Shown: positions 2,508 through 12,008 of the stretch, piece by piece
Layout: every line of letters begins with the position of its first letter
Position numbering within the stretch: the first letter of the stretch is position 1
Assembly: GCA_013214545.1 (NCBI GenBank)
Contig: JABSQB010000010.1
Coordinates: 1-64,000, forward strand
Direction of reading: 5' to 3'
Length of the DNA: 64,000 nucleotides
Source: Henriciella sp.
GTDB lineage: Bacteria > Pseudomonadota > Alphaproteobacteria > Caulobacterales > Hyphomonadaceae
The notes under the pieces: model-generated
Seen by the model: only the letters and a program-made list of their open reading frames with translations
The model's database searches: none
What the model was told of the DNA's origin: nothing
Translations under genes and position numbers: made by a program

Positions 2508-3887
2508 ATGAAACTGATCAGCGATGACATTCTCGTCGATACCGGGGCGCAAGACCCTGTGCACCCGATGACATATCCGATGATCGAAACAGATTTCACG
2601 CTGTGGAACCCAAATTCCTGGACCCGCGGCCACCCCTATGAGCTGTACACCAAGATGCGCAATGAAGCGCCGGTGATGTGGTCCGGCATGCCGCGCGGCG
2701 GCTCCGGCTTCTGGTCAGTGTCGCGCTATGAAGACATCAAGACCGTGGAGCTCGCTCCGGATGTGTTCTCGTCCCAGCGGGGCGGCATCAATCTCGCGGT
2801 GGCGGACCGAAAGCACTGGCGCCCGGAAATCCTGGTGCGCGCGGCGATGGACAATCTCATCTCCATGGATGAGCCGCAGCATATGCAGATGCGGATCCAG
2901 CAGAAGGATTTCTTCATCCCGGCCTATGTCAAAGAGCTGCGCGAGAAAGTCAGCCGCAAAGTTGAATCGCTGTGCGACGATCTCGAAGAAAAAGGCCCAG
3001 TGGTTGATTTCGTGAAGATCTTCTCCAACCAGCTGCCGCTTTACACCTTGTGCGAAATGCTGGGCGTCGATGAAGCCGACCGGCAGAAGATCGTACACTG
3101 GATGCATTATCTCGAAATGGCGAGCCAGTTCATGGCGAACCCGCTGCGCACCTTCCTGGGCGAGCCGCTATTCCCGCTGCGCTTTAAGAAAGTCGTCGAG
3201 GAGATGTTCGCCTATGGCGCCAGCGTCATGGCAGATCGCCGGGCCAATCCGCGCGAGGACCTGCTGACAGTGATCGCCCATTCAAAACTGGAAGGCGAGC
3301 TGCTGCCGCAGGAATATCTCGACGGCTCCTGGCTGCTGATCATCTTTGCCGGCAATGACACGACGCGAAATTCGCTGTCCGGGACGATCAAGCTGATGAC
3401 CGAGTGGCCGGACCAGCGCGCCATGGTGCTCGACGATCCGTCGTTGATCTCACGCATGGCAGAAGAGTCGCTGCGCATGGTCTCGCCGGTCAAGCATATG
3501 CGCCGCACTGCGCTGGAAGACACAGAGATCAATGGCCAGAAGATCGCCAAGGATGAGAAAGTGGTGATGTGGTATGGCGCCGGTAATCGTGACCCGGAGG
3601 TGTTCGCCAACCCGGACACGTTCGACATGATGCGCGACAATGTCGACAAGCACATCGCGTTTGGCCATGGCGTGCATAAATGCCTCGGCTCGCGCGTCGC
3701 TCAGATGCAGCTGCGGGTCGCCTATGAGCACCTGTTTGATCGCTTCCCGAACATCGAGTTCACAGGCGATATCAAGTATGGTCCGAACGCACTCGTGCAT
3801 GCGATCTCTAAGCTGAAAGTGAACCTGTACGGCAAAGGTAATAGCCGTCCGACCAAGGTTCAGGTGAAGAGCCTGGAGAGCGCTTAA
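2508..3887 (+). CDS. Cytochrome P450
   Basis: 459 aa; heme-binding AFGHGVHKCLGSRVAQMQ, I-helix FAGNDTTRNSLSG, EESLR. Confidence 0.95.
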   Translation: MKLISDDILVDTGAQDPVHPMTYPMIETDFTLWNPNSWTRGHPYELYTKMRNEAPVMWSGMPRGGSGFWSVSRYEDIKTVELAPDVFSSQRGGINLAVADRKHWRPEILVRAAMDNLISMDEPQHMQMRIQQKDFFIPAYVKELREKVSRKVESLCDDLEEKGPVVDFVKIFSNQLPLYTLCEMLGVDEADRQKIVHWMHYLEMASQFMANPLRTFLGEPLFPLRFKKVVEEMFAYGASVMADRRANPREDLLTVIAHSKLEGELLPQEYLDGSWLLIIFAGNDTTRNSLSGTIKLMTEWPDQRAMVLDDPSLISRMAEESLRMVSPVKHMRRTALEDTEINGQKIAKDEKVVMWYGAGNRDPEVFANPDTFDMMRDNVDKHIAFGHGVHKCLGSRVAQMQLRVAYEHLFDRFPNIEFTGDIKYGPNALVHAISKLKVNLYGKGNSRPTKVQVKSLESA

Positions 3888-5167
3888 GCCGAGGCTTCAA
3901 ACACTGGCCAGGTGTCGACGATCGCGCCGCCTTCATAGACCGCGATATCCCCGAATTGCAGGAACACCGCTTCGCTCTGATGCGGGCGGAAGAAGACAAA
4001 TTCGTCCGCCGCAATTTCGAGGTCAGGCCCGCCATTCAGCATTTCCTGATTGGACGACCGCCCAAATGTAGAATTGTAGCTGAGCCCCGGCGGATCGACA
4101 GGATCTGCCAGCCAATGCCCGCCATAAATGAAGACGGTCTTGTTATAGTTCGGATCCCAGGCGCGCTTGGCGCTGTCGGCAAATTCGAGGCCCGGCATAC
4201 GCGTCGTTGGCAGCGATTTGATCACCGGCGTGGCGATAAAGCTGGCTGGCAAATGCGGCTCAAGCAGCTCACTGTCAAAATGCGTCGGCTTGACCAGACA
4301 AGACCCAGCCGAAATCTCGTTCGCAATCTCAGTATCTTCGTAATAGCGATAAGTCGGACTGCCAGCTGCGTTACGCGTCAGGTCCTGTAGCGCATCCGCG
4401 CCGAAGACTTCCGCAGCCTGATCCAGGGCGGCGCGATACTTCTTCCAGGCCCCGTTCAGAGCTTTGTCACGCCAGCCGAGCGTGGTTGGCAGGGCCGGAA
4501 TGTGCGGCTCATAGCCCATAAATCCGGAGAGCTTGAGACGATCATTATCGTGGATGGCCTGCAATGTGGCTTGCAGCTCAGCGCCCGGCTCGAACCCGCC
4601 CCGATGCAAGCCGACATCAAGCTCAATATTAATGTCCAGCGTGCGATCTTCGGCGGCGGCGAGATCGGCATATTGCTTCAGGCGACTACCGCTATCGATC
4701 AACCACTGAACTCTGTCCGCGGCTGGCGCGCTTTGCTCGGTCAGCGCAGCGAAGTAATTGCGCGCGGCCTGAACTGGTAATGGCTTGCCGAGCAGTTGAC
4801 TGGCCTCCGGCATGGCTTCGCTGAGCGCTGTCAGCATGGGCTGATTAAACGTCATAAGACGGTCGGTGTTCGCGCGCTGACGAATATGCTCGATAAGGGA
4901 AAGCGAGGGCAGCGATTTTGCTACGATACGATAGCCCATCCGGTCTGGCAGATGACCGACCAATGTATCAATATTGGCGTTTAAACGCGCCCGATCGATG
5001 ACCAGGGTCGGTGTCGCAATTCCGGCTGCGGTCAGCGCGCTCTGCACGTCCAGAAAATATGGGTCACGTGGCCCGCTTTTATCACCCGGTTTCGACATTA
5101 GCGTGCTCACTCCCACAATTGCGGCCCCGCCCAGAAGCAGGTTTCTTCGACTGACTTTAAGCATCAA
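3884..5167 (-). CDS. PLP-dependent alanine racemase/D-threonine aldolase/D-serine dehydratase-like (fold type III) protein with Tat-like signal
   Basis: 427 aa; N-term SRRNLLLGGAAIVGVSTLM; TPTLVIDRARLNANID; IVAKSLPS lysine region; C-term FGDIAVYEGGAIVDTWPVFEA as in DSD/DTA enzymes. Confidence 0.8.
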   Translation of the reverse strand: MMLKVSRRNLLLGGAAIVGVSTLMSKPGDKSGPRDPYFLDVQSALTAAGIATPTLVIDRARLNANIDTLVGHLPDRMGYRIVAKSLPSLSLIEHIRQRANTDRLMTFNQPMLTALSEAMPEASQLLGKPLPVQAARNYFAALTEQSAPAADRVQWLIDSGSRLKQYADLAAAEDRTLDINIELDVGLHRGGFEPGAELQATLQAIHDNDRLKLSGFMGYEPHIPALPTTLGWRDKALNGAWKKYRAALDQAAEVFGADALQDLTRNAAGSPTYRYYEDTEIANEISAGSCLVKPTHFDSELLEPHLPASFIATPVIKSLPTTRMPGLEFADSAKRAWDPNYNKTVFIYGGHWLADPVDPPGLSYNSTFGRSSNQEMLNGGPDLEIAADEFVFFRPHQSEAVFLQFGDIAVYEGGAIVDTWPVFEASA

Positions 5168-6584
5168 ACGACTCCCCGAAAAGCTCCGCCAAATGCGGGT
5201 TCAGGAACTTACCGTCCGGATCCAAGTCGCGGCGCAACTCGGCGAAGCGGCTGAACTCAGGATACAGCATGGCAAAGTCATCATGCTTGAGATTGTGCCA
5301 TTTGCCCCAGTGCGGACGGCCGCCATGGCGCAGGAAGATTGGCTGGAACTCACTAAAGAAATAGTCGAACCGCTCATCCACGGCCGCGTGGATCGCGATC
5401 GACATTCGGGTGCCCCCATTGAACGGACTGAGCCAGGCATCGTCCGGCGCGATGTATCGGATCTCCATCGGGAAGAAGGCGTCTTTGCGCCGGTCCATTT
5501 TCTCGATCACCTGACGCAAGGCTGCGATCCCTTCGTCGCGCGGCAGATGATACTCCATTTCATTGAACTTGATCGGCCGGGTGGTCGCGAGCAATTCCAG
5601 AGAGGCGTCGCTGACATCCTCGATCACGCCGCTTGGCAGCGCCGATTGGGCGATCCGGCGGCGCAGCCATGGCCACCAGCCAAACTGGTCGCGCAGTTGC
5701 TTCAATCCTTCCAGGATCTCATCATCTTCTGAAGGTTGAACGCCTGTGATGTCGCCCTCATGCACGTCATGGCTGAGCGTCGCCGCCATGCCGGTTCCGG
5801 GCAGGTAGAAGACTTCGAAATTGCGATGCGCGGCGGCTCGCGCTTCCAGTTCATCCAGGACTTGCTCGATCGGTTCAGCCCGCACGATCCGGTGCAGATT
5901 GAAGGCAGGGACGGTCTGGACGCTATAGGATGTCATCACCCCAAGCGCACCGAGAGAGACTTTCCCGGCGCTGAACAGGTCCGGATTGGACGCAGCGCTG
6001 ACACCAACAATCTCGCCCGCCGCCGTGACCATGCGAAAGCCGCGAATATAGTCGTGCAGCGCCGTCAGCGTTTCACCCGTACCATGCGTCGCGGTGGAGA
6101 AGGTTCCGGCCAGCGTCTGGTCGACGATATCCGGCAGGTTCAAGAATGCGCGTCCCAATTCGTGCAATTTGCTCGCGGCCTGAAACAGCGTTGTTCCGGC
6201 GCCGAAGGTCGCAATCCCGGTATCGGCGTCATAGTTTTGAAGACCACTCAAATAGCTGACATCAAGAATCGCGCCTTCGCTCGGAACGAGACCTGAAAAA
6301 GAGTGACCAGACCCTCGCGGACGGATGCGGTGCGCGCTGGAGCGAACATATTCGGCGAGTGCTTGTTCTGATTGCGGCGAGGCAAGATCGATAGGCGTCG
6401 CGCGCTGGGCCCCGGCCCAGTTCATCCAGGCTTCTTCCCCGGCAGGCGCGTCCGGATAGTCTGGCGAATAGTCGTCGCGTTCAAACTCACGCATGCCCCA
6501 GGCAACGTGCTGACCAACCGGGATCGCCGTCGCAATCGCGGCGCCTGCCCCAACTTGCAAAAGCCGTCTTCTCGAAACGCCCAT
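5157..6584 (-). CDS. FAD-binding aldonolactone/alditol oxidase family protein with Tat-like signal
   Basis: 475 aa; SRRRLLQVGAGAAIATAIP; RPRGSGHSFSG; C-terminal RPHWGKWH...DPDGKFLNPHL (D-arabinono-1,4-lactone oxidase type). Confidence 0.88.
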   Translation of the reverse strand: MGVSRRRLLQVGAGAAIATAIPVGQHVAWGMREFERDDYSPDYPDAPAGEEAWMNWAGAQRATPIDLASPQSEQALAEYVRSSAHRIRPRGSGHSFSGLVPSEGAILDVSYLSGLQNYDADTGIATFGAGTTLFQAASKLHELGRAFLNLPDIVDQTLAGTFSTATHGTGETLTALHDYIRGFRMVTAAGEIVGVSAASNPDLFSAGKVSLGALGVMTSYSVQTVPAFNLHRIVRAEPIEQVLDELEARAAAHRNFEVFYLPGTGMAATLSHDVHEGDITGVQPSEDDEILEGLKQLRDQFGWWPWLRRRIAQSALPSGVIEDVSDASLELLATTRPIKFNEMEYHLPRDEGIAALRQVIEKMDRRKDAFFPMEIRYIAPDDAWLSPFNGGTRMSIAIHAAVDERFDYFFSEFQPIFLRHGGRPHWGKWHNLKHDDFAMLYPEFSRFAELRRDLDPDGKFLNPHLAELFGESFDA

Positions 6585-6670: not shown

Positions 6671-7288
6671 GTGGCCCTCACCACCAACAAACGCGCAACA
6701 CCAAACCAGGACCGCTCACAGCGGACGGTCGAGCGCGTGCTCGAGGCGGCGGCGGCGTTGTTGGAAGAAGTCGGGTTTGAGCGTCTGTCGACCAACATGA
6801 TCTGCAAGCGCGCCGGGCTGACACCGCCGGCCCTGTATCGATATTTCCCGAACAAATATGCGGTGCTGAAAGAACTCGGCGAACGCCTGATGGAGGCGCA
6901 AAACATCCTGCTCGATGACTGGGACCCCGGCGCCGAAAATCTCGTCGAGCAGATTGAGCATTTCCTGCGCGAGACGCTGGATGTGACCCGCCGTTTCAAA
7001 GCTGGCGGCTGGATTATGCGCTCTCTGCACGCCACCCCGGTCCTCACCGATGTCCGTCTCGACTCGCATCGGCGGATGGCGAATATGATGACGGAGAAAA
7101 CCATGGTGCGCTGGCCAGAGCTCGATCGGGCCAAAGTCTTCGCCAATGCCCGGATCGGGGTTGAGATGGGCTATGCGCTGGTCGAAATGCTCTTCGATGA
7201 ACCATCGATCGATGAGGACGCCGCCTTACGCAACACGGCGCAGATGCTTGCCCATCATCAGAGCATGCTTGTGCAGGGGTCTGTATAG
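6671..7288 (+). CDS. TetR/AcrR family transcriptional regulator
   Basis: 205 aa; N-terminal HTH RVLEAAAALLEEVGFERLSTNMICKRAGLTPPALYRYFPNKYAVLKEL; GTG start. Confidence 0.92.
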   Translation: MALTTNKRATPNQDRSQRTVERVLEAAAALLEEVGFERLSTNMICKRAGLTPPALYRYFPNKYAVLKELGERLMEAQNILLDDWDPGAENLVEQIEHFLRETLDVTRRFKAGGWIMRSLHATPVLTDVRLDSHRRMANMMTEKTMVRWPELDRAKVFANARIGVEMGYALVEMLFDEPSIDEDAALRNTAQMLAHHQSMLVQGSV

Positions 7289-7379
7289 GTTCCGTACGCG
7301 TCTCAGGCACCCTTGCGTAGGTCCTCAGCAGTGGCTTAGGTGGGGATTGACCGGGGACTAAGTGAGGAAAGGGATCGGC

Positions 7380-8525
7380 ATGAAGCGTCTGATCTTGAGC
7401 GTTTTGGGGTTGGCCTTGGCGGCCTGCGCGGGGCCGCAAGGCACAGAGCCTGAGGCGGGTGTTGAGCCGCAAACAGGTTCGGAACGCGCCGCCCCGGTCA
7501 CCGTGGAAGACCGGTTTGCCATCCTGGCGCTGGACTGCGTTCACCGGGAGTATCCCAACAAGATCAGCCATGTCCTGCAGTCGGATGAGGACGCCCGCCC
7601 GCCGCGCGAATTGACCCCGGCATTCTATGGCTGTTTTGACTGGCACTCCTCAGTGCACGGCCACTGGCTTCTGACCCGCATACTGACCACGCGGCCCGAC
7701 AGCGTCTATGCTGACGAAATTCGCGCCAAGCTGGCGCAGAGCTTCACCGCTGAGAACATGGCTGGCGAGCTTGCTTACTACACCACCGAAGGCCGCGCCT
7801 CCTTCGAGCGCCCTTATGGCATTGCCTGGTATCTTCAGCTGATCGCAGAGCTTGAGGAAAGCGATGATCCACAGCTCAATGAATGGCGCGAAACCCTACG
7901 TCCCCTGGAAGATGCGATCGTCGAGAAGACCCGCGCCTGGCTTCCAAAACTCTCCTATCCTGTGCGCCTCGGAACCCATAACCAGACCGCCTTCGCGTTC
8001 GGACTGATGCTCGATTATGCCCGCACGGTTGGGAACACCGAGTTCGCCAATGAGCTGGCGCAGAAAGTGGTCTCTTTTCATCAAGGCGATGTGAATTGCC
8101 CGCTGGCTTATGAACCCTCCGGCGAAGACTTTCTGTCGCCCTGCCTGATGGAAGCAGACCTGATGCGCCGGGTTCTGTCGCAGCAGGATTTCGTCGTCTG
8201 GCTTGGCTATTTCCTGCCTCAGATCCCGATTGATGGCCGCGCAGACTGGCTCGAGCCTGGTATCGTGCTCGATGCGTCGGATGGCAAGCTGGTGCACCTG
8301 GACGGGGTCAACCTGTCACGCGCCTGGGCTCTGGAAGGGATCGCCAGCGCCCTGCCCGCCGAAGACCCGCGCCGTCCCGCGCTCATGGCAGCCTACGCTG
8401 TGCATCGCGACGTGGGGATCGCGGCAGTGTCTGATGAGCACTATTCGGGCAGCCACTGGCTCGCCAGCTTCGCGACTTATCTCACCACGCAACGTGGAAT
8501 TTCACCCAACGAGCGCGCCGAATGA
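7380..8525 (+). CDS. DUF2891-like predicted lipoprotein
   Basis: ATG at 7380, signal MKRLILSVLGLALAAC (lipobox LAAC); FYGCFDWHSSVHGHWLL...HNQTAFAFGLMLDYA...SGSHWLASFATYL. Confidence 0.8.
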   Translation: MKRLILSVLGLALAACAGPQGTEPEAGVEPQTGSERAAPVTVEDRFAILALDCVHREYPNKISHVLQSDEDARPPRELTPAFYGCFDWHSSVHGHWLLTRILTTRPDSVYADEIRAKLAQSFTAENMAGELAYYTTEGRASFERPYGIAWYLQLIAELEESDDPQLNEWRETLRPLEDAIVEKTRAWLPKLSYPVRLGTHNQTAFAFGLMLDYARTVGNTEFANELAQKVVSFHQGDVNCPLAYEPSGEDFLSPCLMEADLMRRVLSQQDFVVWLGYFLPQIPIDGRADWLEPGIVLDASDGKLVHLDGVNLSRAWALEGIASALPAEDPRRPALMAAYAVHRDVGIAAVSDEHYSGSHWLASFATYLTTQRGISPNERAE

Positions 8526-9730
8526 AGCTCGGTTTTGGCCCAGGCGTTCTTGTCGCAGCGGCATTTATCGGGCCGGGAACCGTCACGGCTTGCACCCTTG
8601 CCGGGGCCAATTTCGGCTTCGCTCTGATCTGGGCGCTGGTCTTCGCGACAGTCGCCACCATCATCCTGCAGGATATGGCAGCCCGTTTAGGCGCGGGAGC
8701 AGGCCTAGGACTGGGCGAAGCGCTGATGCAAAGCGCGCCAGCACCAGCTTTGAAATGGGCTGCGGGCGGTTTGGTGTTTGCCGCACTACTGATTGGTAAT
8801 TGCGCTTATGAGGGCGGCAATCTCGCGGGCGGGGCGCTGGGGCTCGACGCGCTCCTGACGACGGCCTCTCCGGGACAGAACATACTGGTCGCAACCCTCG
8901 CACTCATCGCAGGGGCAGCGGTCCCGATCGGGCGATATGAGCTGTTGGAAAGACTGCTCGTCGGACTGGTCTTGATCATGAGCGCAGCCTTCGTCCTAAG
9001 CGTGCTGTTTACCCGGCCCAATCTGATCGCCCTGCTCAGCGGATTGGTTCCGCGCATTCCGGATGGCGGAACGCTGACCGCGATCGCCCTGATCGGCACC
9101 ACGATCGTGCCTTACAATCTGTTCCTGCACGCAGCCGCGACCCGCAAGAAATGGCCAGGAGGCGTAAACACGGAGGCCGCAAGACGGGACTCAAGCCTCT
9201 CCATCGGCCTCGGCGGACTGATTTCAATCTTCATCCTCTCCACCGCCGCGACGACGCTGTTCAAGAGTGGTTTGGAAGTCACCAATGCGGCTGACATGGC
9301 CCGCGCCATCGAACCTGCATTCGGCGATGCGGCGCGCTATCTGATCGGCATCGGACTATTCGCTGCTGGCCTGACGTCTGCGATCACGGCGCCGATGGCG
9401 ACCGCTTTTGCCCTTAGCGAAATCATTGGTGGCGATGAGAAACGCAAATCTACCCTGTTTCGAGGCACCGCCCTTTTGGTCGTGATCGTTGGCGCAGCGA
9501 TCAGCTTGTCAGGTATCCGCCCGATCGAAATGATCCTGATCGCCCAATACGCCAACGGATTGCTTCTTCCGCTGATGGCGGGCTTTCTGCTCTATGTGAT
9601 GAATCGCAAAGACTTGCTGGGTCGGCACGCCAACACTCTACTGGCGAACATCGCAGGCAGCGCCATCGTCTTGATCACTCTCGGGCTTGGTCTACGCTCC
9701 ATCCTGCGCGCGGCAGGAGTGATGGCATGA
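8522..9730 (+). CDS. Nramp-family transporter, divergent (lacks DPGN and MPH motifs)
   Basis: 402 aa, multi-TM; FIGPGTVTACTLAGANFG in the TM1 region, TTIVPYNLFLHAAA in the TM6 region; 4-nt overlaps with flanking genes. Confidence 0.88.
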   Translation: MKLGFGPGVLVAAAFIGPGTVTACTLAGANFGFALIWALVFATVATIILQDMAARLGAGAGLGLGEALMQSAPAPALKWAAGGLVFAALLIGNCAYEGGNLAGGALGLDALLTTASPGQNILVATLALIAGAAVPIGRYELLERLLVGLVLIMSAAFVLSVLFTRPNLIALLSGLVPRIPDGGTLTAIALIGTTIVPYNLFLHAAATRKKWPGGVNTEAARRDSSLSIGLGGLISIFILSTAATTLFKSGLEVTNAADMARAIEPAFGDAARYLIGIGLFAAGLTSAITAPMATAFALSEIIGGDEKRKSTLFRGTALLVVIVGAAISLSGIRPIEMILIAQYANGLLLPLMAGFLLYVMNRKDLLGRHANTLLANIAGSAIVLITLGLGLRSILRAAGVMA

Positions 9731-10473
9731 TCAAAACGATCGATCTCAATGCAGATCTTGGTGAAGGTTGCGCCTATGATGCGGAGCTCATGTCAGTTGT
9801 GACCAGCTGCAACATCGCGTGTGGCGGACATGCTGGCGACGCGGACAGCATGCGCACGGCGCTTAAGCTCGCCGGAGAAAACGGAGTATCGGCTGGCGCG
9901 CACCCGTCCTTCCCTGATCGGGAGAATTTTGGACGGACGAAATCGGATCTGCGCGGGGACGCGCTGGAAAAGACACTCCGTGCGCAGGTCAAAGTATTGG
10001 CGGTCCTGGCCGATGAAGCAGGCATCGCACTCAGTCATCTGAAACCGCATGGCGCGCTGTACAATATGGCGGCGCTCGACGTCGAGCTGGCGCAGAGTAT
10101 TTGCGCGGTGCTGCAGGACGCGCTTCCGGGCGCGCGATTGGTTGGTCCGCCCGGCTCGCAGTTACAGATGCAGGCAGAAGCACAAAGTATCCCCTTCGTG
10201 GCGGAAGGCTTTGCCGATCGTGCCTATGAACGCGACGGCCAGCTGCGGGATCGCAAGCTCGACGGCGCCGTCTTTCATGATCCGCAGCAGCAGGTCGCCC
10301 AGGCTGCTGAGATCGCCTTGAAGAAGCAAGTCAGCACGCATGAAGGCGAGGTAATTGCCCTGCCGGCTCAAACGATTTGCGTTCACGGCGATACGCCCGG
10401 CGCATTCGCTGCTGCGCAAGCCATTCGGGCTGCGCTGGAAGCTCAGGAGATCTCGATATGTCCGCCGGATTGA
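9727..10473 (+). CDS. pxpA: 5-oxoprolinase subunit A (LamB/YcsF family)
   Basis: 248 aa; DLNADLGEGCAYDAELMSVVTSCNIACGGHAGD, HLKPHGALYN. Confidence 0.95.
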   Translation: MIKTIDLNADLGEGCAYDAELMSVVTSCNIACGGHAGDADSMRTALKLAGENGVSAGAHPSFPDRENFGRTKSDLRGDALEKTLRAQVKVLAVLADEAGIALSHLKPHGALYNMAALDVELAQSICAVLQDALPGARLVGPPGSQLQMQAEAQSIPFVAEGFADRAYERDGQLRDRKLDGAVFHDPQQQVAQAAEIALKKQVSTHEGEVIALPAQTICVHGDTPGAFAAAQAIRAALEAQEISICPPD

Positions 10474-11078
10474 TTCCAATCCGCATCGCGGACGATGTTT
10501 TCGAATTCAAAGTCGAGACGCCTGCGCAGGCTCAGGCGCTGGCTTCTTACTTGCGCGAGGACTTGACCGCTGAAGACGTCGTCGCTGGGCTCGACCGGGT
10601 TGCGGTTCGATTTGCCCCCGAAGACCTGGATCACGTGACCGCTCGGTTGGCCAAAGTAAAACGCGTTCCCACGGCCGAGCAGGAGACGGGTCCGGCGATT
10701 GAGATCTCAGTCAAATATGGCGGCGAAGCAGGCCCCGACCTGGAGCAAGTGTGCGAGGCCCTGGACCTCACGATCGATGCCTTCATCGCCCTCCACACTG
10801 GCAATATTCACACGGTCGAGATGATCGGCTTCACGCCCGGCTTTTCTTACATTTCTGGTCTCCCCGACGATTTCGCCGTCCCGCGGCTCGACAATCCCCG
10901 CCCCCGCGTGGCCGCGGGCTCGGTCGGGATTAGCGCAGGATTCACCGGCATCTACGCCCTACAAGCCCCCGGCGGTTGGCCGCTCATCGGACGCACAGAT
11001 GCTATGCTTTTCGATGCAGACAGAGACTCTCCTTTTCTGCTGAGCCCCGGCCAGCAAGTAAGGTTCCGAGCAACTTAA
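10458..11078 (+). CDS. pxpB: 5-oxoprolinase subunit B (KipI family)
   Basis: Likely start ATG 10458 (MSAGLIPIRIADDVFEFK); IHTVEMIGFTPGFSYISGLP, PRPRVAAGSVGISAGFTGIYALQAPGGWPLIGRT. Confidence 0.93.
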   Translation: MSAGLIPIRIADDVFEFKVETPAQAQALASYLREDLTAEDVVAGLDRVAVRFAPEDLDHVTARLAKVKRVPTAEQETGPAIEISVKYGGEAGPDLEQVCEALDLTIDAFIALHTGNIHTVEMIGFTPGFSYISGLPDDFAVPRLDNPRPRVAAGSVGISAGFTGIYALQAPGGWPLIGRTDAMLFDADRDSPFLLSPGQQVRFRAT

Positions 11079-12008
11079 ATGATGACCGTCACCAAACCCG
11101 GATTGCAATCGACCCTGCAAGGGCCGCCGCGGCGCGGCTACCGGCATTTGGGCATTCCGTACGCTGGCCCGGCTGATCCTTTGTCCCATGCACTGGCAAA
11201 TCGATTGGTGGGAAATGCGCTCAGTGCGAGTGCGCTTGAAATCACCTACGGGGGATTTGCCGGTGAATTCCGCGAGGATTGCAGCCTCGCCATCACTGGA
11301 GCGTACGGACAGATCCTCGTATCGGGCATGGCAATGCCGGCGCATACGACGCTGCACCTGAAAGCGGGCGATCAGATCGAAATCACGCAATCCGAACACG
11401 GCATGCGCGCCTATCTCGCCATCCACTCAGGATTTGAAGCCGAGACGTTTTTCGGCTCGGGTTCCACGTACCTTCCGGCCGAATTCGGTGGCTTAGACGG
11501 ACGCGCGCTGAAGGCCGGAGATGAATTGTCCGCAAATCAATCGGCGGTGTTCGCGTCAACACTCGAGACGCCGCCAGACTATCGTCCCGCTTTTTCCAAC
11601 GCTGTCGGCCTACGGGCTTGCGCCTCGGCCGAATCGAACCTGTTGATCGGGCAGGACCGGGCATTGCTGTTTGAAGAGACCTTTATCGCCGGACGACAGG
11701 CAACGCGCATGGGCATTGCGATGACGGGCCATAAGCTTTCACCCAACAGCGATGGCAAAATGAAGAGTGCTCCAGTCTTTCCTGGAACCATCCAGTGCCC
11801 TCCCTCAGGCATACCCGTAATACTCCTTTGCGACGCCCAGACCACCGGCGGATATCCGCGAATTGCGAGCATTGCCCGATGTGACCGACATCTGCTCGGT
11901 CAAATACGCCCTGGCGATCATATACGATTGCTCGAACGCTCACCTGAAGCGGCGCTGCAAGACTCTGCGGCGAAACAAAAACAACTAAACGACTGGCTTC
12001 TCACCTGA
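11079..12008 (+). CDS. pxpC: 5-oxoprolinase subunit C (KipA family, biotin-dependent-carboxyltransferase-like)
   Basis: 309 aa; TVTKPGLQSTLQGPPRRGYRHLGIPYAGPADPLSHALANRLVGN, SDGKMKSAPVFPGTIQCPPSGIPVILLCDAQTTGGYPRIA. Confidence 0.94.
   Translation: MMTVTKPGLQSTLQGPPRRGYRHLGIPYAGPADPLSHALANRLVGNALSASALEITYGGFAGEFREDCSLAITGAYGQILVSGMAMPAHTTLHLKAGDQIEITQSEHGMRAYLAIHSGFEAETFFGSGSTYLPAEFGGLDGRALKAGDELSANQSAVFASTLETPPDYRPAFSNAVGLRACASAESNLLIGQDRALLFEETFIAGRQATRMGIAMTGHKLSPNSDGKMKSAPVFPGTIQCPPSGIPVILLCDAQTTGGYPRIASIARCDRHLLGQIRPGDHIRLLERSPEAALQDSAAKQKQLNDWLLT

Follow-up and report, generated by a model that had tools for sequence, protein, structure and literature searches.

Nramp-related proteins encoded beside the prokaryotic 5-oxoprolinase PxpABC have been given two different substrates. 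In Corynebacterium glutamicum, the Nramp-related protein PxpT is needed for growth on 5-oxoproline, and a 50% identity to Bacillus subtilis YcsG was reported for it (PMC13274462); that paper also cites YcsG as necessary for 5-oxoproline use. YcsG was later reported as a Mn2+ importer and renamed MntG (PMC10448178), and Acinetobacter baumannii MumT was reported as a Mn2+ importer as well (PMC5050338). Here we describe an Nramp-related gene from Henriciella sp. (assembly GCA_013214545.1, contig JABSQB010000010.1, positions 1 to 64,000; this whole stretch of 64,000 nucleotides (nt) is hereafter the window). Genome context and sequence indicate that its product is probably an importer of 5-oxoproline (pyroglutamate) belonging to an uncharacterised Nramp-related clade. 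Like PxpT, YcsG (MntG) and MumT, the window protein is Nramp-related, lacks the metal-binding motifs DPGN and MPH of canonical Nramps and is encoded in a pxpABC operon. It is predicted to work like PxpT, a more distant relative, yet it lies outside the YcsG/MumT clade and is no canonical Nramp.

An Nramp-related gene in a 5-oxoprolinase operon

The window protein matched Pfam PF01566 across its full length (260.5 bits; cut-off 29.8) and scored 140.5 bits with the MntH model, under the cut-off of 430. In a HMMER alignment to DraNramp, figpgtv was placed over ymdpgnf in transmembrane helix 1 (TM1) and ttivpynl over atvmphvi in TM6, so that the metal ligands D56, N59, M230 and H232 fall on G17, T20, V196 and Y198. 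This bears out a preliminary description of the same DNA, which had read GPGT and VPY in place of DPGN and MPH; the alignment gave no DPGN or MPH equivalents elsewhere in the protein. The window protein is without the canonical metal-binding residues at TM1 and TM6. The acidic pair D131/E134 of the proton pathway in TM3 is not retained either: E97 is present in 91% of the clade, with mostly Q in the remainder, and N100 is invariant. Because proton-pathway residues are replaced in both TM3 and TM6, proton coupling through the canonical Nramp pathway is unlikely in this clade.

The AlphaFold2 model of the protein (predicted local distance difference test, pLDDT, 88) is LeuT-fold-like, with TM1 and TM6 broken at the site positions, a feature that the preliminary description had proposed to look at by modelling. 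Homology and model agree on the fold, and the best Foldseek matches were all Nramp-family structures (EleNRMT, DraNramp and BfraNramp). The protein resembles canonical Nramp/MntH proteins in fold and length, with template modelling (TM) scores of 0.81-0.92 to the DraNramp and BfraNramp structures and lower ones, 0.68-0.85, to two inward-open apo DraNramp entries; it differs from them in the replaced metal and proton-pathway residues and is 21-27% identical. The closest solved structure was that of the EleNRMT-type Mg2+ transporter (DxGx/xPW), with 29% identity in the structural match. That type carries the signature DAGG/APW, falls outside the window clade and is without oxoprolinase linkage; the window protein has neither the DxGx/xPW signature nor a place in the NRMT group.

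The operon and the site positions are as follows.

8522-9730, + strand: Nramp-related transporter gene of the GPGT/VPY clade, predicted 5-oxoproline importer (402 amino acids, Pfam PF01566)
8570-8581, + strand: TM1 site G17-P18-G19-T20, where the metal-binding DPGN stands in metal Nramps (DraNramp alignment)
8819-8821, + strand: TM3 N100, counterpart of DraNramp E134, invariant in the clade and in the YcsG/MumT clade
9107-9115, + strand: TM6 site V196-P197-Y198, counterpart of the metal-binding MPH (DraNramp alignment; VGY in haloarchaea)
9727-10473, + strand: pxpA, 5-oxoprolinase subunit A (NCBIfam NF003814, 259.9 bits, cut-off 226; Pfam LamB_YcsF)
10458-11078, + strand: pxpB, 5-oxoprolinase subunit B (TIGR00370, 150.6 bits, cut-off 145.55)
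11079-12008, + strand: pxpC, 5-oxoprolinase subunit C (TIGR00724, 238.2 bits, cut-off 230.2)
7380-8525, + strand: DUF2891 gene (Pfam PF11199, 445 bits; alternative start GTG at 7362); the product starts MKRLILSVLGLALAAC, a lipoprotein-type signal

DUF2891, the Nramp gene, pxpA, pxpB and pxpC form a five-gene run with tight junctions. Read directly from the DNA, the transporter gene overlaps both neighbours by 4 nt, as had been noted before, in two ATGA junctions: its ATG at 8522 overlaps the upstream stop at 8523-8525, and the pxpA ATG at 9727 overlaps the transporter stop at 9728-9730. The pxpA/pxpB overlap is 16 nt and the pxpB/pxpC gap is 0. The earlier assignment of pxpA, pxpB and pxpC was upheld by curated models: the first two genes passed NCBIfam 5-oxoprolinase cut-offs, and pxpC passed the broader 5-oxoprolinase/urea amidolyase model TIGR00724 and fell below the PxpC equivalog cut-off (NF045499, 217.3 bits against 500). 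The transporter gene is the sole Nramp-family gene detected in its genome. An upstream TetR-family gene (6671-7288) was considered as a conserved regulator and rejected, with 2 matches among all loci. Farther upstream, on the minus strand at 3884-6584, lie two exported-looking genes with a short overlap (5157-5167), which by eye resemble an amino-acid racemase/aldolase-like protein and a flavin adenine dinucleotide-linked oxidase with a twin-arginine-like start.

The GPGT/VPY clade and its relatives

Nramp-family genes and their flanks were collected from five sources: relatives of the window genome, a neighbour-blind motif scan of GTDB, PF01566 matches in 299 Pseudomonadota genomes, profile searches of 199 Actinomycetota and 148 Bacteroidota genomes, and plasmid records. 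After deduplication, 287 genes were sorted by their TM1/TM6 class into GPGx/VxY (168), canonical DPGN/MPH (33), NRMT-like DxGx/xPW (41), DPSG/SPY (31) and others (14). Genes were assigned to the GPGx/VxY class on G-P-G, V and Y, blind to their neighbours. In a maximum-likelihood tree of 113 representatives, the placement that the preliminary description had proposed, this class formed one clade (Shimodaira-Hasegawa-like approximate likelihood ratio test, SH-aLRT, 99) and the canonical class another (100). The class-defining G17, P18, G19, V196 and Y198 are invariant in the 168 relatives, and T20, N100, T194 and N345, which played no part in the definition, are 99-100% conserved (T20 99%, N100 invariant). 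The motif is therefore not a chance resemblance, since the class forms one clade and residues unused in its definition are conserved along with it. Haloarchaeal members carry VGY at TM6. A search of viral contigs gave no relative. One genome (G105) with several Nramp-family genes encodes two very divergent members of the family, with the sites GPGS/PPN (L169) and GPGA/SIN (L205).

The preliminary description had pointed to B. subtilis ycsG, an Nramp-family gene next to ycsF/kipI/kipA; YcsG is not of the same branch as the window protein. The structural match between the B. subtilis YcsG model 9a52 and the window model gave 18% identity, and the apparent orthologues of YcsG fall in a separate GPGF/GGY clade. 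GPGF and GGY were found at an A. baumannii locus whose genes follow the mum order (L329) and at a Bacillus badius plasmid locus with the order pxpA-Nramp-ycsI (L325); YcsG is placed with them by synteny with the B. badius plasmid and by the 18% identity, and PxpT is placed there because of its reported 50% identity to YcsG. Both clades have TM1 GPG, N100, Y198, N345 and the TM3 glycines. They differ in TM1 (GPGF versus GPGT), TM6 (GGY versus VPY) and TM3 (FNxGN versus YExGN), and members of the YcsG/MumT clade, which has a very long branch and often ycsI and biotin carboxylase genes at the locus, are 18-26% identical to the window protein. The tree separates GPGT/VPY from GPGF/GGY with SH-aLRT values of 99 and 100. 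A single clade of YcsG, MumT and the window protein was thus rejected by motif, tree and identity: the window protein shares the pxpABC operon with the YcsG/PxpT/MumT group and has neither its GPGF nor its GGY. YcsG/MumT-type genes gave no strong hit in the 199 Actinomycetota genomes.

Two further observations concern loci of the YcsG/MumT type. On the Klebsiella pneumoniae plasmid pKpN06-SIL (L330) and in about 100 similar Klebsiella/Enterobacter plasmid records, a YcsG/MumT-type Nramp gene is accompanied by pxpA, ycsI and genes for a urea amidolyase-like protein and a biotin carboxylase; the Nramp gene bears the annotation of a divalent metal transporter. The A. baumannii mum operon, which has been described as one of urea metabolism, encodes a homologue of PxpA together with PxpB and PxpC fused in one protein. 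Its enzyme may accordingly be related to 5-oxoprolinase and depend on biotin, rather than being a urea carboxylase.

By sequence, the window clade matches the SLC11 "orphan" outgroup of Cellier (PMC10606218). Its h3 motif GYGNGG fits G92, Y96, G99, N100, G103 and G107 of the window protein, its h6 V-Y fits V196 and Y198, and its substituent T fits T194, in a comparison with the paper's text. The accessible part of the study by Ray, Berry and Gaudet (PMC12873925) calls Nramp-related groups besides the EleNRMT and MntG groups entirely uncharacterised, and neither that part nor the available text of PMC10606218 mentions a substrate or a 5-oxoprolinase neighbour for such proteins. Our literature search found no paper assigning a substrate to the GPGT/VPY clade.

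Association with two unrelated types of 5-oxoprolinase

PxpABC shows no similarity in sequence to the eukaryotic-type 5-oxoprolinase (PMC8453981, PMC13274462), and enzymes of either family accompany the clade. A pxpA, pxpB or pxpC gene lay within 6 kb of 84 of the 168 GPGx/VxY transporters, a count that the preliminary description had proposed to make, and a HyuA/HyuB-family (OPLAH/HyuAB) gene within 6 kb of 41; no locus had both. A 5-oxoprolinase-family enzyme was found at this distance from 125 of the 168 genes versus 3 of the 119 other Nramp-family genes (Fisher p = 3e-39, a value that ignores shared ancestry and is hence overstated), a near-exclusive association among the sampled Nramp classes. 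With the comparison confined to loci having at least 2.5 kb of flank on each side, the counts were 81/116 versus 2/67. The nearest enzyme gene was no more than 60 nt away in 107 of the 120 linked loci with both genes on the same strand.

The transporter occurred in 29 of 37 genomes of the window's family, and PxpA in 17 of these 29 and in 1 of the 8 genomes without the transporter. Among the 12 transporter genomes without PxpA, 11 have a HyuA/HyuB chain adjoining the transporter, mostly with a 4-nt overlap, and where the flank suffices this chain is fused and 1194-1207 amino acids long (Henriciella, L039, L040, L048). Within Henriciella itself, the genus of the window, the enzyme type switched once and the transporter retained its overlapping junction. 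Fused chains of 1194-1252 amino acids with Hydant_A_N, Hydantoinase_A and Hydantoinase_B domains are, by sequence, putative members of the OPLAH family; such fusion is the architecture of oxoprolinases, related hydantoinases having separate subunits (PMC8453981). Well-supported branches in a 44-member tree require at least four changes of enzyme type. Split HyuA/HyuB pairs, in place of the fused chain of OPLAH, were found in haloarchaea, Actinomycetota and some Bacteroidota. In haloarchaea, 12 of the 13 loci read have HyuA, usually with HyuB, directly after the transporter. In several of them a gene of the Asp/Glu racemase family is also present, with arylmalonate decarboxylase as its best match in NCBIfam (below cut-off), and glutamate dehydrogenase is encoded nearby in two Haloarcula. 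On haloarchaeal plasmids (L032, L036, L315-L324), a CopG-type regulator gene stands upstream of transporter-HyuA/HyuB, possibly forming an archaeal 5-oxoproline or hydantoin operon.

The association extended beyond gene neighbourhoods. The test covered 34 genomes in which no enzyme of either type lay close to the transporter on its own strand: PxpA was encoded elsewhere in 31 and an OPLAH/HyuAB-type enzyme in the remaining 3. Among the 148 Bacteroidota genomes, one of which was excluded from this count for a partial hit, PxpA was present in 26 of 35 with the transporter versus 7 of 112 without it (p ~3e-15). The nine Bacteroidota transporter genomes without PxpA had HyuA/HyuB adjoining in seven and elsewhere in one. 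Of the seven genomes that have PxpA and no GPGT/VPY-clade transporter, two (G585, G698) encode a remote Nramp-family match right next to PxpA.

The upstream neighbour in the window, left unnamed in the preliminary description, was identified as DUF2891, and this gene adjoins 43 of the 168 GPGT/VPY-clade transporters. In the 299 Pseudomonadota genomes DUF2891 occurred 27 times, 12 of them beside DUF969/DUF979. The latter pair is known from Campylobacter jejuni, where DUF969, DUF979 and DUF2891 correspond to cj0552-4 and a mutant is unable to use 5-oxoproline (PMC12795558). DUF969/DUF979 (cj0552-cj0553) resembles the window system in being a proposed transporter of 5-oxoproline and in sharing its operon with DUF2891, and differs in belonging to Pfam families other than PF01566. 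Two proposed, mutually unrelated transporters of 5-oxoproline have DUF2891 as a partner in common. Beside an Nramp-type transporter it is a predicted lipoprotein in 34 of 44 cases, which suggests a role outside the cytoplasm; a lipobox was seen in 0 of the 12 DUF969/DUF979 loci. The AlphaFold2 model of the window DUF2891 matched crystal structures 8ieu and 8iev of C. jejuni Cj0554 with TM scores of 0.78-0.90, and the fold search gave good matches to its own family only and weak ones to other (alpha/alpha)-barrel enzymes.

Proposed function, alternatives and implications

Because two unrelated enzymes share the conversion of 5-oxoproline and ATP to glutamate, a transporter found near either most simply supplies 5-oxoproline. 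We infer that the window protein, as a secondary transporter of the LeuT fold (APC superfamily), would carry 5-oxoproline inward, and that PxpABC of the same operon would then use ATP to open the ring, yielding glutamate. Where canonical Nramps hold the metal, in the unwound stretches of TM1 and TM6, the window protein would have a pocket for an organic substrate, lined by G17-P18-G19-T20, N100, V196-P197-Y198 and N345. In this predicted site, which would have no acidic or sulfur metal ligand, T20, N100, Y198 and N345 are candidate contacts for the carboxylate and the lactam. The link to 5-oxoproline that the preliminary description had put forward is thus strongly supported, as a predicted function, by genome context and the absent metal ligands.

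The published Mn2+ results raise the question of whether the protein instead imports a divalent metal and furnishes the cofactor of the 5-oxoprolinase in its operon. In B. subtilis, overexpression of YcsG increased cellular Mn2+, and the operon promoter is bound by MntR (PMC10448178); deletion of A. baumannii mumT lowered Mn and was complemented (PMC5050338), OPLAH/HyuAB-family enzymes have a metal site (PMC8453981), and EleNRMT moves a metal without DPGN/MPH (PMC12873925). YcsG and MumT belong to another clade, however, at the low identity given above; D56, N59, M230, H232 and E134 are all replaced in the window protein, the replacements at D56, M230, H232 and E134 being invariant in its clade, and the G/T/V/Y tetrad offers no acidic or sulfur ligand. 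None of the 33 canonical MntH genes adjoins these enzymes, although most were seen with short flanks (1.5 kb), and for the related CapAB, Mn and Fe are excluded and Zn is the tentative metal (PMC8453981). We consider Mn2+ import distinctly unlikely. That 5-oxoproline is a minor substrate, or one of several, of a carrier for other cyclic amides or small organic acids such as hydantoins is suggested by the presence of hydantoinases and caprolactamase in the OPLAH/HyuAB family and by the racemase-family gene of the haloarchaeal operons, with its arylmalonate decarboxylase match. This too seems unlikely: in 84 loci the same transporter has the prokaryotic 5-oxoprolinase PxpABC as its neighbour, the fused chains are typical of oxoprolinases and not of hydantoinases, and nearly all lone-transporter genomes have PxpA. 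Export of excess 5-oxoproline arising by spontaneous cyclisation of glutamate or glutamine, as damage control, would fit the accumulation of 5-oxoproline inside and outside B. subtilis cells without oxoprolinase (PMC13274462). It is highly improbable, given that deletion of C. glutamicum PxpT, albeit of the other clade, stops growth on external 5-oxoproline, and that the frequent lipoprotein prediction for DUF2891 in the window clade (34/44) hints at an extracytoplasmic role.

Several points count against 5-oxoproline import. We found no assayed member of the GPGT/VPY clade in the literature, the support being genome context and sequence, and the distant relatives YcsG and MumT are reported to raise cellular Mn2+ (PMC10448178, PMC5050338). 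For 43 of the 168 relatives no such enzyme lies within 6 kb, the flanks of some being cut, and the association p-values, including that for Bacteroidota, ignore shared ancestry. Hydantoinases, caprolactamase and carboxylases also belong to the HyuAB family; the best match among solved structures is named N-methylhydantoinase; NCBIfam gave these neighbours no equivalog-level assignment, no model separating oxoprolinases from hydantoinases reaching its cut-off; and the HyuA/HyuB pairs that are split, as in haloarchaea, Actinomycetota and some Bacteroidota, may be hydantoinases.

The wording "repurposed" in the preliminary description presumes a lost metal site and needs revision. In a published rooted phylogeny (PMC12873925), canonical metal-binding Nramps nest inside paraphyletic Nramp-related proteins; the window clade need not, therefore, have lost a metal site, and its branch may never have had the canonical one. 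A wider scenario, possible though somewhat doubtful at present, is that at least two distant Nramp-related clades (GPGT/VPY and GPGF/GGY) are 5-oxoproline transporters with a shared G-P-G/N/Y/N site and that the metal site of Nramps arose from an APC-superfamily site for an amino-acid-like substrate, not the reverse.

The findings bear on the dispute over 5-oxoproline versus Mn2+ as substrate of Nramp-related proteins in pxp operons, in which both published sides studied another clade; the exchange of non-homologous enzymes beside one transporter argues for an organic substrate. DUF2891 emerges as a candidate new component of 5-oxoproline use. If 5-oxoproline import is correct, it would give a substrate to an "orphan" branch of a family annotated in databases as divalent metal transporters, would correct a standing misannotation of bacterial and haloarchaeal proteins, and would bear on the evolution of the Nramp metal site.

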